23,299 nt of DNA, from the IMG/VR virus record IMGVR_UViG_3300027712_000153, positions 1 to 23,299 of that record; one strand, 5' to 3'. Positions 4 to 7,274 of the stretch are shown piece by piece. The position numbers were made by a program, and so were the translations under genes. How positions within the stretch are numbered: position 1 is the stretch's first letter; every line of letters begins with the position of its first letter. The stretch is from a virus. The notes under the pieces were generated by a model that did no database searches, was not told where the DNA came from, and was given only the letters and a program-made list of their open reading frames with translations.

Positions 4-2190
4 TTAGGCTACCAATCCAACGAATCGGTTGAGTAGGACTCGGGAAGTCTTCTTTACATTGAGGAATTTACCGAAATTCTTTGCAATCGCTTTTGCATTT
101 GCATCGGCTTTCACATCCATTTCACCCTCTTGGATCTTGGTTGAAGATTGCGGAATCAAAAACAACTCATCACGACCAGTGTTCTTCACTGATGCAAACC
201 CATGTGCTCTGAATTCTTTCTTCCAAGTTTCAACTAATGCATAAAAGTCGCCACGATAGTCAGGTAAATTTGACTGTGCAACACCACGCAAATCACGACC
301 ACGATTCTGACAGATATGGAATCCAACCATGGTAACATTGTAACGATCTTTGATCATTCGAAGAATCATCTCAGTTTGATTACCAGACAAGCGACCAATT
401 TCGTAAGTCTTCTGTGTAACTTCATCTTTGATAAAGTTCTTGATCTTGATTCGTTTGTAAACACCATCAACAATTTCAGTGCGAGTATCATCGAAACGAC
501 CAGATGAATACGTATTCAATGAACCACCCTCACCATCAGTTAGAGTGATGAAAGTTGTTTTCTCAATATTATTGTTCTTGATAAATGTACCCAAAGTTTT
601 GTAACAATATACCAATGCTTCGTTCAGTGGAGTGCCACCAGTGTTGTAGCCATCATTCCAAAAGAAACGATAATCAAGGATACGACGAGACATTGAATTG
701 AATTCGCTGGTAGTCATTTTGCTATTAAAGAATTCTAACAAGTGGAACCTGTCGGCACAGTCGATCAAATTGTTTGGCTCTCGTCTTTCAGATCTCCAAG
801 CATTGTATGCTTCACGTTCTGCATTTGTTTCAGCTACATGCCCATTATAGTCAGTGGTAAATGCAAAGACACGATATGGAATCTGAACACGATTACAGAA
901 CATAGCCAGATTGATAACTTGTTTCATGGTATCTTTCAATACATCATTCATTGAACCAGACCAGTCAACAAGAAGTACCATACCATGATTCTTACCTTGT
1001 GGCAAAGAAGTCACACGCTTGAACAAATCATCTTGCAATTTGTATGCATAAACTTTCTTCATGTCCAGTGAGCCAATCTTTGATACCATTGCACGCTTGT
1101 GTAGTTGAGCAGACTTCTTCATCTCGAATTCTTTTACGAGATAGTTCACAGTGCGGATTGATTCGGTTTTAAATTGCACAAAATCTGAATCTTCTGCAGC
1201 ATGGAAAGCAGTTCGTTGTTCTTCACTCATGTTACGAGTGCGATAGTCAATCATTTCTGGACTATCAACTGACCACTTCTCAGGTGATTTGGTTTCATTA
1301 AGAATCTGTTTGTAACCAATGACTGGGTCTTTATAGTAGTCTGTGTCAAATTTCCAGTATCTGTATTCAGTAGAATCATCAGCAAGGTCTTCCAATTTGT
1401 TTTGGAATGCTCTTTCTGTTTTAGATTCTAGGTCATCACCTAACTCTGACTTGTCGTCATTTTGTAAAGTAGATTGTTTATTCTTTTTAGATGGTTTCAG
1501 ATCATCGTCGTTATCATCATTTTGTTCATCAAAATCATCATCAGCATTGATATCAAAGTCACCATCAAATGGATCTTCGTCTTCTTCATCGTCACTATCT
1601 TCAGCGTCTTCAAATTGTTGTTGTTGCTTGCGTTCCTCGGCAACTTGTTTAGAATATGCATAGATATCGTTTGCCAATGCAATGATTTCATCGATTGTCT
1701 CAGTTCGTTCAGCACGATTCACAAATGTCTTTTCGTCAGGTGTGAATGTTACACCACACTGGAAACCAGCCTTAAAGTAAAGATTGATTTTGTCAATGAG
1801 TAAAAGTTCGTCAAAGTCTTGAATTTGTTTCGTGCCAAAGAAGTCACGATCATTGAGTTGCTTGTATCCTTCGTTCATGCGTTTGCGCAATCCTGGATAC
1901 TTGCGTTTGATAAGTTTCTCGATACGAACATCTTCTAAGACGTTCATGTATGAGTGTAACTTAGGGTATAGTTTTAGTGGTTCAATATATGTACCATCAG
2001 TGTAAAGGGCATGACCCACTTCGTGACCAACTAACATATCTTCAATTTCGGGAGTCATATCTTTCCACATCGGCAGAGTCAGGATACGACTCTTGATGTC
2101 AAAAGATGCAGTGCGAGTTCTGGCACGAATCACTGAAAGATTTTCAGTTGCCAGTAATTTTGCGGAGAGATCAGTTGCTTTCATTTCCAT
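4..2190 (-). CDS. HExxH metallopeptidase-like / VWA domain protein (CobT-like)
   Basis: This 728-aa protein has three visible parts. An N-terminal region carries HEVGH at residues 56-60, with acidic residues E86, D87 and E91 downstream as candidate third zinc ligands. Residues about 194-256 form a very acidic Asp/Glu linker. The C-terminal part is a von Willebrand A domain with a complete-looking MIDAS: DWSGS at 409-413, T520 in TGGTPLNEAL, and D552 in LTDGEGG. An acidic linker before a VWA domain recalls the CobT cobaltochelatase subunit and the VWA partners of MoxR-type AAA+ ATPases. CobT itself does not explain the HExxH part. The start ATG has GGAG eight bases upstream and follows the 57-aa gene by three bases, so both probably share the promoter near 2400. 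The substrate is unknown and a cobalamin role is not implied. A BCS1-type AAA+ ATPase in the neighbouring operon is a possible partner, by inference only. Confidence 0.8.
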   Translation of the reverse strand: MEMKATDLSAKLLATENLSVIRARTRTASFDIKSRILTLPMWKDMTPEIEDMLVGHEVGHALYTDGTYIEPLKLYPKLHSYMNVLEDVRIEKLIKRKYPGLRKRMNEGYKQLNDRDFFGTKQIQDFDELLLIDKINLYFKAGFQCGVTFTPDEKTFVNRAERTETIDEIIALANDIYAYSKQVAEERKQQQQFEDAEDSDDEEDEDPFDGDFDINADDDFDEQNDDNDDDLKPSKKNKQSTLQNDDKSELGDDLESKTERAFQNKLEDLADDSTEYRYWKFDTDYYKDPVIGYKQILNETKSPEKWSVDSPEMIDYRTRNMSEEQRTAFHAAEDSDFVQFKTESIRTVNYLVKEFEMKKSAQLHKRAMVSKIGSLDMKKVYAYKLQDDLFKRVTSLPQGKNHGMVLLVDWSGSMNDVLKDTMKQVINLAMFCNRVQIPYRVFAFTTDYNGHVAETNAEREAYNAWRSERREPNNLIDCADRFHLLEFFNSKMTTSEFNSMSRRILDYRFFWNDGYNTGGTPLNEALVYCYKTLGTFIKNNNIEKTTFITLTDGEGGSLNTYSSGRFDDTRTEIVDGVYKRIKIKNFIKDEVTQKTYEIGRLSGNQTEMILRMIKDRYNVTMVGFHICQNRGRDLRGVAQSNLPDYRGDFYALVETWKKEFRAHGFASVKNTGRDELFLIPQSSTKIQEGEMDVKADANAKAIAKNFGKFLNVKKTSRVLLNRFVGLVA

Positions 2191-2467: not shown

Positions 2468-4186
2468 TTACTTAGTTGCAATAATGGAAAAATCATTGCG
2501 TTTTTCGAACCTAATGACGGATCTGAACTTGTCAAACAACTGATCACCCTTGTGGGAAATAACAAAGATGTTTGTGTTCTCTCCGAATTGATTCATTAGA
2601 TTAAGGAAGTAATCTGTTCCTGCTGTGTCCAAAGATGAATCGAAGATCTCATCCAACAACAGTAGGTTTGTATTGACGGAGTTCTTCATTTTTGCAATCT
2701 GTCTCCATGTGAATAGGATTGCTAAATCTATCCTCATTTTTTCACCCTCACTAAATGAAGCATAGGTAAAGTCATCTCTGAATCTAGACTTAACTGATTC
2801 GTTGAATGCTTCGTCTAGTTCAAAGTGAATGTAAGCATCCATTGCTTGGAGATACTTGTTGATCAACTTATTCATGATAGGTAGATACTCACGAATGATT
2901 GCTGTCTTGATACCAGTATCTTTTAATAGGATATTGGCGACTTCTTCAAGATTACGCTGTTCATTTAGAGTTGTCTTAGTATGAATCTTAACAATTGCTT
3001 CAGTGGCAAGTTCTTTTAACTTGGCTTTCTCTTCATCGATATTTGTTGTATCAGTTTTTGCGCTTTCGATTTCAGCCTGCATCTCTTTAACTTGTTTATT
3101 GAGTAAGGTGATCGTAGAGTTTCGTGTAGATAGTTCAATATTTTTGCTGGTAATCTCTGATTGGATTTTAGTAATCTGAGATAGTTTCGCATTAAGATTG
3201 GAGAGGATTCCTTCGAGTTCACTGATCTTTGTGTTGTTGTCCAGCAACTTATCATTAAGATCTTTGACGATCGATTCTTTGTATTCTTCTGCAATATCTT
3301 GGTTGCACGATGGGCAAACATCATGTTCACTAAAGAACTCTGTGTTGTGCTCACAAGTTTCGATTTTCTGGAGTAACTTGGACTTGATTGACTTGGCTTT
3401 GTCGATATCTTCAGCAACAGTTTCCTTGTCATTGATGCTTGCTTTAAGAGTATTGATCTCCGAAAGGATAGATTCGATCTCGCCCTCAGCAGATAAAATC
3501 TCAGCATTGTTTGCAGTAATTTTTGTGGCGATACTTTCGATGGCACTACTCTTCGCTTCATTGATAGTTTTGATGAGTTGTGTCTGCGCATCAACCTTTG
3601 TCTTCGCAGTCGATATTTCGTTTTCAATTTTGGCAATAGCATCTTTAGTTTCCTGTGCTTTCTCTTTCAATAACTGATTCATTGTAGAGAAAATACGAAT
3701 GTCGAGAATGTCTTCGATAACTTCTCTTCGTTGACTTGTTGGTAACTGCATGAATGGAACAAACGATGCAGAACCAAGGATAACAACTTGCGTGAATGTC
3801 TTGTAGTTCAGTTTAAGAATCTGCTGTTCAAGAATCTTTTGATAGTCTCTTGATGCAGCATCTTGGTTAATCATCTCACCATCTTGCCAGATTTCAAATA
3901 CATTGGGTTTGATACCACGAATGATTTTATATTCTTTACCATTGATGTCAAACTCAACTTCAACAGAGCAACCCTTACCATTGATGGAGTTGACCAACTG
4001 TCCTTTGTTGATATTACGGAATGGTTTACCGAATAACGAAAAGCACAATGCATCTAAGATTGTGCTCTTACCTTCACCATTCTTACCAATGATAAGAGTA
4101 GTCTGCGACTTGTTTAGTAATACTTTGTTCGGTGAGTTGCCAGTGGATAAAAAGTTCTTCCACTGTACGCTTTTAAATACGATCAT
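2468..4186 (-). CDS. 46: gp46 recombination endonuclease subunit (SbcC/Rad50-like ATPase)
   Basis: The 572-aa ATPase subunit of the gp46/gp47 complex, which resects DNA ends for recombination-dependent replication and helps degrade host DNA. Walker A is GKNGEGKS (34-41). A long coiled coil is interrupted by a zinc-hook CPSC at 291-294. The ABC signature SFSEGEKMR is at 477-485 and Walker B LLLLDE at 508-513. Length is close to T4 gp46 (560 aa), and stretches such as GKPFRN, GIKPNVFEI and FTWRQIA parallel the T4 protein. The ATG overlaps the stop of the preceding 106-aa gene by four bases (ATGA), indicating translational coupling. The next gene downstream has its own promoter. Confidence 0.96.
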   Translation of the reverse strand: MIVFKSVQWKNFLSTGNSPNKVLLNKSQTTLIIGKNGEGKSTILDALCFSLFGKPFRNINKGQLVNSINGKGCSVEVEFDINGKEYKIIRGIKPNVFEIWQDGEMINQDAASRDYQKILEQQILKLNYKTFTQVVILGSASFVPFMQLPTSQRREVIEDILDIRIFSTMNQLLKEKAQETKDAIAKIENEISTAKTKVDAQTQLIKTINEAKSSAIESIATKITANNAEILSAEGEIESILSEINTLKASINDKETVAEDIDKAKSIKSKLLQKIETCEHNTEFFSEHDVCPSCNQDIAEEYKESIVKDLNDKLLDNNTKISELEGILSNLNAKLSQITKIQSEITSKNIELSTRNSTITLLNKQVKEMQAEIESAKTDTTNIDEEKAKLKELATEAIVKIHTKTTLNEQRNLEEVANILLKDTGIKTAIIREYLPIMNKLINKYLQAMDAYIHFELDEAFNESVKSRFRDDFTYASFSEGEKMRIDLAILFTWRQIAKMKNSVNTNLLLLDEIFDSSLDTAGTDYFLNLMNQFGENTNIFVISHKGDQLFDKFRSVIRFEKRNDFSIIATK

Positions 4187-4503
4187 TCAGCCTTCCATTT
4201 CATACCCATAGATTTATACATAAACTTCAATATAAAATTGGGTTTCTTTTTAGAGATAATAGTAATCGGCATTGCATCAACATTAATAGTAAAGGATGGA
4301 TTACCAAGATTATTAGAGATGGTAGTCCAAGCAGTCCCAGTACCACCAGTACTAAGCAAATAAGAACCAGATAATACAGTAGAATTTTTTAACTGTTCGG
4401 CTCGCTTATCTAAAATATACTTTTCGGTTTGCGTGAAATCTAAGTCAAGATTAATCTGTTCTGTCAGTGAAAAGAAATACTCAATCTCAAGTTGTTGCAT
4501 CAT
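4183..4503 (-). CDS. 106-aa hypothetical protein between gp47 and gp46
   Basis: An unrecognised protein with no clear motif. It opens MMQQLEIEYFFSLTEQ, has a Gly/Thr/Ser-rich middle (STGGTGTAW) and ends in a basic tail with KKKPNF and MKWKAE. It overlaps gp47 by four bases at its start (ATGA) and gp46 by four bases at its end, so it is locked into translation with both nuclease subunits. Two consecutive ATG codons occur at 4503 and 4500; GAGG upstream is spaced slightly better for the second. Coupling suggests stoichiometric expression with the gp46/gp47 complex, but a role in it is inference. T4 also has small genes scattered in this region; I cannot equate this one with any. Confidence 0.8.
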   Translation of the reverse strand: MMQQLEIEYFFSLTEQINLDLDFTQTEKYILDKRAEQLKNSTVLSGSYLLSTGGTGTAWTTISNNLGNPSFTINVDAMPITIISKKKPNFILKFMYKSMGMKWKAE

Positions 4504-5555
4504 ACTACCTCGATGTTGATTGCCTCAGTGTAAAGTGTTCTCATGTATGTCTTGATTTGTTCTTTGTCAACATCAGTTTCAATACTATCAATGTAATGGG
4601 TGAGAACAGATACCGTATCTTCGAGATTAAGTTCTTCACCAATCTCACCATCTTGAAACTCTGACATGTCTTCAATAATCTTGATCTCATGACAACCCTT
4701 ATTATACAACTTCTGAATGAATTTGTCAAATTTATAAAAGTCATTCTTGTTTACAACTACTAACTTTACATATTTCTGCTCAAGTTCAATTGTGTCTAAG
4801 TCGACAGGTTCTTGGTCTTTGTCGTTGTATTCGATTCGTTCAAACATTCGATAAGGATTGCAAATGAATTCAAGTTCTCTTGTACTAAGATCGAACAGGT
4901 GGAATCCTCTGGGATCGTTATAGTCCTGCCATGTAAGTTCGTACGGATTTCCGAGATAATGAATATGCTGATCACTACTCCTATGGTGATAGTGCCCAGA
5001 AAAAACCAAATCAAACTTCTCAAAAGTTTCTTTAGCCAAGCCATCGTGTGATTCCATTCCTCTATACATTGCAAAGCCAGCGATCTCAAGATGTCCCATG
5101 CAGATTTCGGCTTTAGTGTTTTTAATATGATCCAGAGATTCTTGATAGTTCTCTGGACAAATCCATGGCAACATACAGATGGATGTTCCATCAATAACTA
5201 TTGTTTCTGGTTTGGAGATAACATCAATGTTACCGTATTCAACTAGAAGTAAATCTGGAGAGTTTACCTCATTAGTATTTTTATAATAAGTGTCGTGATT
5301 ACCAGCCAGCATGTGCACTCTAATACCACGCTCTTCCAACTTGTCGAAGAACATTTTCTTTGCTCTGTCAAGTGCGTAGAAGTTGACATACTTCCTTCTA
5401 TCAAAAGTATCGCCAAGAACAAGAACAGTGTCAATAGAATTTGCATCAAGAGCAGGAAAGAAAGTATTGTCATAGAATTTTTCGAAGAAGTCTAAAAAAG
5501 CAATACTATCATTACGAGCACCAAAGTGTTGATCTGTAATAATGGCTACCTTCAA
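4500..5555 (-). CDS. 47: gp47 recombination endonuclease subunit (SbcD/Mre11-like nuclease), TTG start
   Basis: The 351-aa metallophosphoesterase subunit that partners gp46. Mre11-type motifs are in order: D8-x-H10, GD at 48-49, GNHD at 85-88, H155 in MGHLE, and GHYHH at 187-191. The start codon is TTG at 5555: the D-x-H motif lies eight codons in, no ATG or GTG precedes it in frame after an upstream stop, and AGG is six bases upstream. This TTG overlaps the TGA of the AAA+ gene by four bases (TTGA), so initiation is probably coupled. The gene runs straight into the 106-aa gene and gp46, forming the resection module. Length is close to the T4 protein (about 340 aa). Confidence 0.95.
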   Translation of the reverse strand: MKVAIITDQHFGARNDSIAFLDFFEKFYDNTFFPALDANSIDTVLVLGDTFDRRKYVNFYALDRAKKMFFDKLEERGIRVHMLAGNHDTYYKNTNEVNSPDLLLVEYGNIDVISKPETIVIDGTSICMLPWICPENYQESLDHIKNTKAEICMGHLEIAGFAMYRGMESHDGLAKETFEKFDLVFSGHYHHRSSDQHIHYLGNPYELTWQDYNDPRGFHLFDLSTRELEFICNPYRMFERIEYNDKDQEPVDLDTIELEQKYVKLVVVNKNDFYKFDKFIQKLYNKGCHEIKIIEDMSEFQDGEIGEELNLEDTVSVLTHYIDSIETDVDKEQIKTYMRTLYTEAINIEVV

Positions 5556-6742
5556 ATGAAACCTACCTTTCTATTTACTTGTGATTGTTTGCTGCCTTCA
5601 GATTGTCGATTAAACAATTCTGCAATAGAGAATTCTACAACATCACCACCTTTTCGTTCTGGTATTGTTGCACCTAGTTTTTCTGCGAGTTTTTTAGCAT
5701 CGAACAAAGACAATGGTTTAAATTCAACGATGTCAAAACATCTTCCTGGACGAATAAGAGCAGAGTCAATATCACGAACACTTGGAAGATTGGTAGAGAA
5801 AATCATCTTCTTACCTTTAGTTGTAACAAGACCATCACCCACATTCAAGAAACGATGCATCATTGTGTTACCATCGCTACGAGATTTCAAGAATGCATCA
5901 CTGTCTTCAAGAACCATAATCTCTGCGTCATCCTCGATGAACTTTGCGAAGAACCCATCTTTCTCAAGAATGCCAGCATCATAAGTTACGATTGCAGAGC
6001 AGTTGCGATGAGCAAGCAGACCACGAATGAATGTAGTCTTACCAGTTCCTGGAGGTCCAATTAGTAGGAGAATGTTAGCAGAAGATTCCATATAACGATC
6101 GTAATAATCGCCAAGGGATTCGCCTTTGAGGAATGGATACATTTCTTCAACAGGCATGCGGTCACGATTCAATGGAACATTAACGGAGTTGCCATCAGCA
6201 CCATATACCCATTCAATGTAAGAAGAAACCACATCAAAGTTTTCTTCAACAATTTCAATCATGTCTTCTGCAAATTCAACATCACCAAATGCACGAACAG
6301 TGGTTGAATTAGAGTTAACATCAAACTTGATAAAGTTGTTAGTATTTTCTTCAATAATAAATCCAGTCGATGCATTACTTTGCACGAACAAACAATCTTT
6401 GTATTGATCTTCTGCCCATTTGGACCATCGTTGACGATCGCAGAGAACAGTTGTTTCTCGTTGTACAGTTGATAGTTTTGCATCAACACGACGCTTCATA
6501 ATTTCGACTGTGACTAAGTCTTCGAAATCAGAAACACCTAAAAATATTTTTTCATTATTACTCATAATCTCATTCAAATCAAATTGGTTATCGTATGTAT
6601 CCCATACATATTTTCTAAGAAGTTTTTTGCCTTGTTTTTTTCGTCTACTTTTTAAACTTCTTGCCAGTGCAGGGTAAGATCTCGTCACTGTTTTATGTCC
6701 TGCTGCTAACTCACGAATCCACTGTCTTATGTCCTGTGTCAT
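5552..6742 (-). CDS. BCS1-type AAA+ ATPase
   Basis: An AAA+ ATPase of about 396 aa. Numbering from the first in-frame ATG at 6751, Walker A is GPPGTGKT at 232-239. Walker B has the BCS1-type order LEDSD at 281-285 rather than DE. A sensor-1 Asn lies in FSTN near 321, and an arginine-finger region RPGR is at 334-337. The first 40 residues are basic; residues 50-220 match nothing I recognise and would be the substrate-recognition part. ATGs at 6751, 6748 and 6742 are possible starts; 6742 is preferred because GGA lies at a usable distance. It overlaps the end of gene 55 by about 30 bases and the start of gene 47 by four. It is not the clamp loader gp44, whose P-loop context differs. It may remodel a protein complex; the VWA protein in the next operon is a candidate partner by analogy with AAA+/VWA pairs. 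Confidence 0.85.
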   Translation of the reverse strand: MTQDIRQWIRELAAGHKTVTRSYPALARSLKSRRKKQGKKLLRKYVWDTYDNQFDLNEIMSNNEKIFLGVSDFEDLVTVEIMKRRVDAKLSTVQRETTVLCDRQRWSKWAEDQYKDCLFVQSNASTGFIIEENTNNFIKFDVNSNSTTVRAFGDVEFAEDMIEIVEENFDVVSSYIEWVYGADGNSVNVPLNRDRMPVEEMYPFLKGESLGDYYDRYMESSANILLLIGPPGTGKTTFIRGLLAHRNCSAIVTYDAGILEKDGFFAKFIEDDAEIMVLEDSDAFLKSRSDGNTMMHRFLNVGDGLVTTKGKKMIFSTNLPSVRDIDSALIRPGRCFDIVEFKPLSLFDAKKLAEKLGATIPERKGGDVVEFSIAELFNRQSEGSKQSQVNRKVGFI

Positions 6743-7274
6743 TTTCATCATCCAAAAAACTGTTCAATGTATTTTCCATCTTTTTCTTTGCAGCCTTTTC
6801 TTTCTTACGTCCAATGAAATCATCGAATGTATGATTCTGCTGCATGAAGTCTAAATACGCATTATGAAATTCACCTGTGTCATCTTGTTCTTGTAACTCA
6901 AACATTTCAAAGGGCATGTCTTGAATCAACTTACCTTTAATATAACTTTGTTTCTTTTCCTTAGCAATCCTTCGCAGAAATGCATACCAGATAATCTGCG
7001 TAAAATATGCAAATGGATTATTGGATTTGGTGGGATCAAAGTTATCAATATACTGAAGACAGTTTTCAACGCCATCAGATATCATCTCCTCACGATAGGA
7101 GTAATTGATAAAGTTTGGTTTATAAGAAAGATGGTTTGCTATCTTAAGAATGCATTCACCAATGTAATTACTTACTTGAGGTTTCGGTAAACCTTTTTCT
7201 TCAGCTTCTTTTTTCTTAGCTCGCATCTCAACGATAGCTGCTAAAAAATCAGCGTTATTTACATATTGTGCCAT
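6711..7274 (-). CDS. 55: gp55 late-transcription sigma factor
   Basis: A 187-aa protein matching T4 gp55 (185 aa) in length and character. A sigma region-2-like core is visible as CLQYIDNFDPTKSNNPFAYF, followed by IIWYAFLRRIAKEKK. It replaces the host sigma on RNA polymerase and reads the TATAAATA-type late promoter. GATAAATA boxes upstream of structural genes in this window are its predicted targets. The gene has its own sigma70-like promoter and leads the operon with the AAA+ ATPase, gp47, the 106-aa gene and gp46. The C-terminal segment, after TFDDFIGRKK, is basic then acidic; in T4 the end of gp55 contacts the sliding clamp, but I cannot identify a clear clamp-binding motif here. Confidence 0.93.
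   Translation of the reverse strand: MAQYVNNADFLAAIVEMRAKKKEAEEKGLPKPQVSNYIGECILKIANHLSYKPNFINYSYREEMISDGVENCLQYIDNFDPTKSNNPFAYFTQIIWYAFLRRIAKEKKQSYIKGKLIQDMPFEMFELQEQDDTGEFHNAYLDFMQQNHTFDDFIGRKKEKAAKKKMENTLNSFLDDENDTGHKTVDS

Follow-up and report, generated by a model that had tools for sequence, protein, structure and literature searches.

Gene content of the locus

The window, by which we mean the whole stretch of viral DNA analyzed here (23,299 nucleotides), carries a run of T4-like structural genes, a helicase, a late sigma factor, an AAA+ ATPase, a gp47-like gene and a gp46-like gene, followed by an open reading frame at positions 4-2190. Gene names in the window rest on position and on two annotated relatives, Syn30 and Mosig. 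The gp46-, gp47- and gp55-type neighbors suggest, but only suggest, early or middle expression of ORF 4-2190. Interspersed with the gp47-, gp46- and peptidase-like genes are two small open reading frames (4183-4503 and 2194-2400, both on the minus strand) that had no confident family match. The window ends one codon past the stop of ORF 4-2190, and the position of the next gene falls beyond the end of the contig. The features of ORF 4-2190 are as follows.

4-2190, minus strand: complete ORF, 728 amino acids, with a zincin-like N-terminal domain, acidic linker and VWA domain with MIDAS (PHROG 459, "peptidase")
1597-2190, minus strand: N-terminal domain, residues 1-198, zincin-like by predicted structure
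2011-2025, minus strand: HEVGH, residues 56-60, by conservation and model
1930-1935, minus strand: E86, predicted to be the third metal ligand, with the adjacent D87 (NVLEDVRIE)
1441-1620, minus strand: acidic low-complexity linker, approximately residues 191-250
7-990, minus strand: VWA domain region, approximately residues 401-728, including a conserved C-terminal helix and tail
952-966, minus strand: MIDAS DxSxS motif (DWSGS), residues 409-413, by conservation
631-633, minus strand: MIDAS residue T520, by conservation
535-537, minus strand: MIDAS residue D552, by conservation

An earlier note made from the sequence had described a 728-residue protein fusing a metallopeptidase-like region, an acidic linker and a VWA domain. 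The reading frame was confirmed, with an ATG start and on the minus strand, which that note had left unstated, and HEVGH, DWSGS, T520 and D552 were all found at the positions it gave.

Family assignment

The protein matched the profile of phrog_459, annotated as a peptidase, with an E-value of 7.6e-183 over residues 10-728 (profile length, 736 positions), and a search of Pfam and NCBIfam detected no significant domain. Members of phrog_459 occur in 463 phage records, for the most part from T4-like cyanophages; catalogs already list the family under the name "peptidase" for hundreds of marine phages. The window protein shares with the PHROG 459 proteins of T4-like cyanophages and pelagiphages a full-length match, a common layout and, as in Syn30 and Mosig, a CobS-like gene downstream. 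It differs in being only about 30-36% identical over its full length to isolates in the phage collection; beyond this divergence, there was no structural difference. The fusion of an HExxH domain to a VWA domain is not new, as PHROG 459 already contains it and Iyer et al. (2021; PMC7824862) described it, and ORF 4-2190 is a real, well-conserved further case of this architecture.

Homologs were collected from two scans of viral contigs, one scan of genome contigs and annotated records. The matches among genome contigs were mostly to marine metagenome-assembled genomes and single-cell assemblies and were taken to be phage contigs binned with their hosts. Conservation was assessed in 120 homologs with less than 90% mutual identity that were 21-89% identical to the query, of which 118 cover the HExxH motif.

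The N-terminal domain

The residues H56, E57 and H60 were kept in all 118 covering homologs, and E86 and D87 were present in 120 of 120. The HExxH motif, E86, D87 and the MIDAS residues remained invariant or nearly so down to about 30% identity, and in a 97-row alignment the invariant columns were H56, E57, H60, N83, E86, D87, R89, D409, S411, S413 and D552, with 19-28 residues between the second histidine and E86. Composition-preserving shuffles of the window protein contained HExxH in 0.8% of cases and DxSxS in 17%. The DxSxS motif alone therefore proves little, and the role of chance was judged by conservation.

When modeled alone with AlphaFold2 (pLDDT, 91.7), the N-terminal domain was predicted to contain three strands, a helix (residues 47-63) that bears H56 and H60, and a following helix (residues 76-97) that bears E86. 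This order of elements is that of a gluzincin-type zincin, in which a glutamate on the helix after HExxH serves as the third metal ligand, and E86 is, by its position in the model, the probable third ligand here. Foldseek comparison to the PDB returned the minigluzincins jannalysin, selecase and abylysin first, with E-values of 0.07 or worse and probabilities up to 1.00. The 15 best re-aligned PDB entries were all zinc metallopeptidase or zincin folds (including BepA, abylysin, ArdC, selecase, jannalysin, BlaR1, IrrE/PprI and a putative Zn peptidase), with Z-scores of only 5.0-6.2, below 8, while unrelated helical entries scored 4.9 or less. These moderate scores are persuasive because they agree with an HExxH motif and a glutamate found independently to be invariant. 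The minigluzincins share the zincin core and the HExxH helix with the window domain, but they are single-domain enzymes of about 105 residues, sequence identity to them is low and Z reaches only about 6. Compared with models of viral proteins, the N-terminal domain matched many proteins named CobT-like or VWFA. Since a sequence search of the PDB with the window protein gave no zincin, as was the case with Pfam and NCBIfam, the case for a zincin is made by motif, conservation and model. These support the metallopeptidase-like region proposed earlier, and the suggested check on conservation came out in its favor throughout the family; only outlying relatives, described below, are without the motif. 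The other suggested check, on whether the two histidines face each other, was answered indirectly, through the fold matches.

The linker and the VWA domain

The full-length model (pLDDT, 81.9) consists of the N-terminal domain, a disordered stretch at residues 200-248, where pLDDT is below 50, and the VWA domain. Aspartate and glutamate make up 44% of residues 190-250, which are predicted to be disordered, in agreement with an acidic linker. The MIDAS is complete and conserved as had been claimed, with D409, S411, S413 and D552 present in 120 of 120 homologs and T520 in 119. The best PDB match of the VWA domain was NorD in the NorQ-NorD complex (Z of 15.8 over 257 residues, with an rmsd of 7.5), followed by the MIDAS domain of MDN1/Rea1. 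The available text of PMC13036017 describes NorD as an N-terminal domain, a linker and a VWA domain, names the MoxR ATPase NorQ as its partner and treats the mode of action of NorQD. NorD as described there resembles the window protein in its N-terminal domain, linker, VWA domain with MIDAS, C-terminal tail and AAA+ partner with a CbbQ_C domain. It differs in that this text reports no HExxH domain in NorD, whose function is iron insertion into cNOR.

A conserved CobS-like partner gene

A MoxR-type, CobS-like AAA+ gene on the same strand was detected in 147 of the 153 relatives with a match or room for one, a count that excludes the window's own copy, whose contig ends before that position. Of these genes, 144 lie downstream or overlap slightly, usually within 1 kb, and three lie upstream. 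The CobS-like partners contain an AAA_5 domain and, weakly, the C-terminal domain of CbbQ/NirQ/NorQ. At one locus among the CobS-like matches in Staphylococcus phage, no HExxH-VWA neighbor was found within 4.5 kb.

The window itself encodes an additional AAA+ ATPase at 5552-6751 on the minus strand (PF00004, 1.4e-10; Walker A motif GPPGTGKT; phrog_14322, of unknown function), which adjoins the gp47-like gene and occupies the same place in many relatives. This ATPase was ruled out as the partner: it matches PF00004 better than AAA_5, and the CobS-like gene sits on the other side.

The presence of a CobS-like AAA_5 gene just downstream in nearly all relatives and the match of the VWA domain to NorD suggest that the window protein serves a MoxR-type motor as a zincin-VWA co-chaperone and is not a lone effector. 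The earlier note had proposed a candidate effector acting on a host or phage protein, with the VWA domain as its docking module. An active site and a MIDAS that both look intact fit a stand-alone protease directed at a host protein, but the conserved AAA+ neighbor and the retention of the gene in T4-like phages that infect different hosts are better explained by a core phage function; we consider this reading very improbable. The VWA domain does appear to be a docking module and, because the conserved neighbor is an ATPase of the CobS/NorQ type, it most likely seats on the ATPase ring, as NorD does on NorQ.

Similar pairs have been read in two ways in the literature. For jumbo phages of group 2.2, Iyer et al. 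(2021; PMC7824862) described the pairing of MoxR with a vWA protein to which a metallopeptidase is fused, and proposed a role in virion assembly. By that description, domain order and partner type are those of the window family, although the phages are jumbo phages. Liu et al. (2021; PMC8651126) considered the cyanophage "peptidase" annotation to be a mistake for CobT. The two papers disagree on the pair.

Relationship to CobT

According to Liu et al. (2021), the protein would be a viral CobT; with a viral CobS, it would build a cobaltochelatase with the hijacked CobN of the host and increase cobalamin synthesis. Besides its publication, this proposal draws on the adjacent CobS-like gene and on the layout of N-terminal domain, acidic linker and VWA domain, which is common to the aerobic cobaltochelatase subunit CobT and the window protein, as the earlier note had recognized. 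CobN/ChlH-type genes are present in genomes binned as Prochlorococcus and Synechococcus. CobN was present in 73 of 190 alphaproteobacterial genomes, a set in which SAR11, a pelagiphage host, is not singled out. A literature search on SXT cobS/cobT and on SAR11 cobalamin yielded nothing useful.

The window protein, however, did not match PF06213 (CobT) or PF11775 (CobT_C) at E-values up to 10, and PF06213 was absent from the window's record. An HMMER match to the CobT profile was discounted, as it falls in the acidic linker and is compositional. Alignment of the phage family to canonical CobT with hhalign gave an E-value of 0.0047 but a probability of 7%. The HExxH motif was absent from canonical CobT in 31 of 31 genomes and was never lost in the phage family where covered, so a purely structural CobT role leaves its retention unexplained, and the data favor a real zincin in the window protein. 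We regard a viral CobT as unlikely.

Proteins with HExxH followed by ED (or EE) and a VWA domain, encoded near an AAA+ gene, also were detected in Ochrobactrum, Klebsiella, Microcystis and Gordonia phages and in Vibrio, Thiomicrorhabdus and Pseudoalteromonas plasmids. In three large plasmids (L082, L084, and L085), the recurrent gene order was AAA+ ATPase, DUF3150 and HExxH/VWA protein, with toprim close by; L084 and L085 also have an ssb gene in the vicinity, and L084 has an exonuclease gene there as well. The HExxH-bearing Pseudoalteromonas and Klebsiella-phage proteins, which are intermediates (L085 and L183), match the CobT Pfam model as well (2.2e-12 and 1.4e-22, respectively). In the HMMER alignment, the residues "alalr" of CobT lie opposite HEVGH of the Pseudoalteromonas protein. 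Taken together, these findings suggest that the CobT N-terminal domain may be a decayed zincin.

Some outlying relatives have altered sites. ICP2 keeps HECYH but has valine at the aligned glutamate position, and the motif is lost in Nican01 (DSEISK) and in a Caballeronia plasmid protein (HLAAGH). The Nican01 protein (L184:1786-3945) and the intact Klebsiella phage protein (L183:1705-3984) are related CobT-like proteins, the former a natural inactive version. Since Nican01, the Caballeronia protein and canonical CobT are without the site, a zincin-like domain can serve without catalysis. The window protein could be a NorQD-like remodeler or a metal-insertion chaperone, with an H/E/H/E site that retains a metal ion or passes it on but does not cut. 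The persistence of relatives with a degraded site is compatible with this, as is the role in iron insertion given for NorD, the closest structural match of the VWA domain, in the available text of PMC13036017, and proteolysis does not follow from fold and ligands by themselves. However, the catalytic-type glutamate E57 is as invariant as the histidine ligands (118 of 118), which pure metal binding would not need. Catalysis is favored for this reason, and a non-cutting metal binder seems rather unlikely.

A proposed two-part machine

We consider it reasonably likely that, in a phage machine of two parts, the product of ORF 4-2190 is the subunit that handles the substrate; the CobS-like protein would form an ATPase ring, the VWA domain would dock and the zinc site would cleave. 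By analogy to NorD and NorQ, a hexameric ATPase ring would be capped by the window protein through its VWA domain and conserved C-terminal tail. A client would dock at the MIDAS, ATP-driven twisting would be transmitted along the linker and the remodeled client would be cut at the zinc site. Conservation of the gene in these phages makes a phage protein of assembly or replication a likelier client than a single host protein targeted as a one-off.

The core genes of T4-like cyanophages include cobS (PMC3037559), which commonly is taken to be an auxiliary cobalamin gene. If its near-constant neighbor encodes a working zincin-VWA protein, that reading of cobS is likely wrong, and the two genes would together encode a concrete phage machine. 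We tentatively raise the possibility, which we hold with less than even confidence, that core cyanophage "cobS" is unrelated to cobalamin and encodes the motor of a two-gene, ATP-dependent metalloprotease, in which the ring remodels, the VWA domain holds and the zincin cuts in trans, and that the N-terminal domain of CobT descends, in decayed form, from a protease of this kind. What makes this core phage gene pair interesting is its function, which has been read in two conflicting ways in print.
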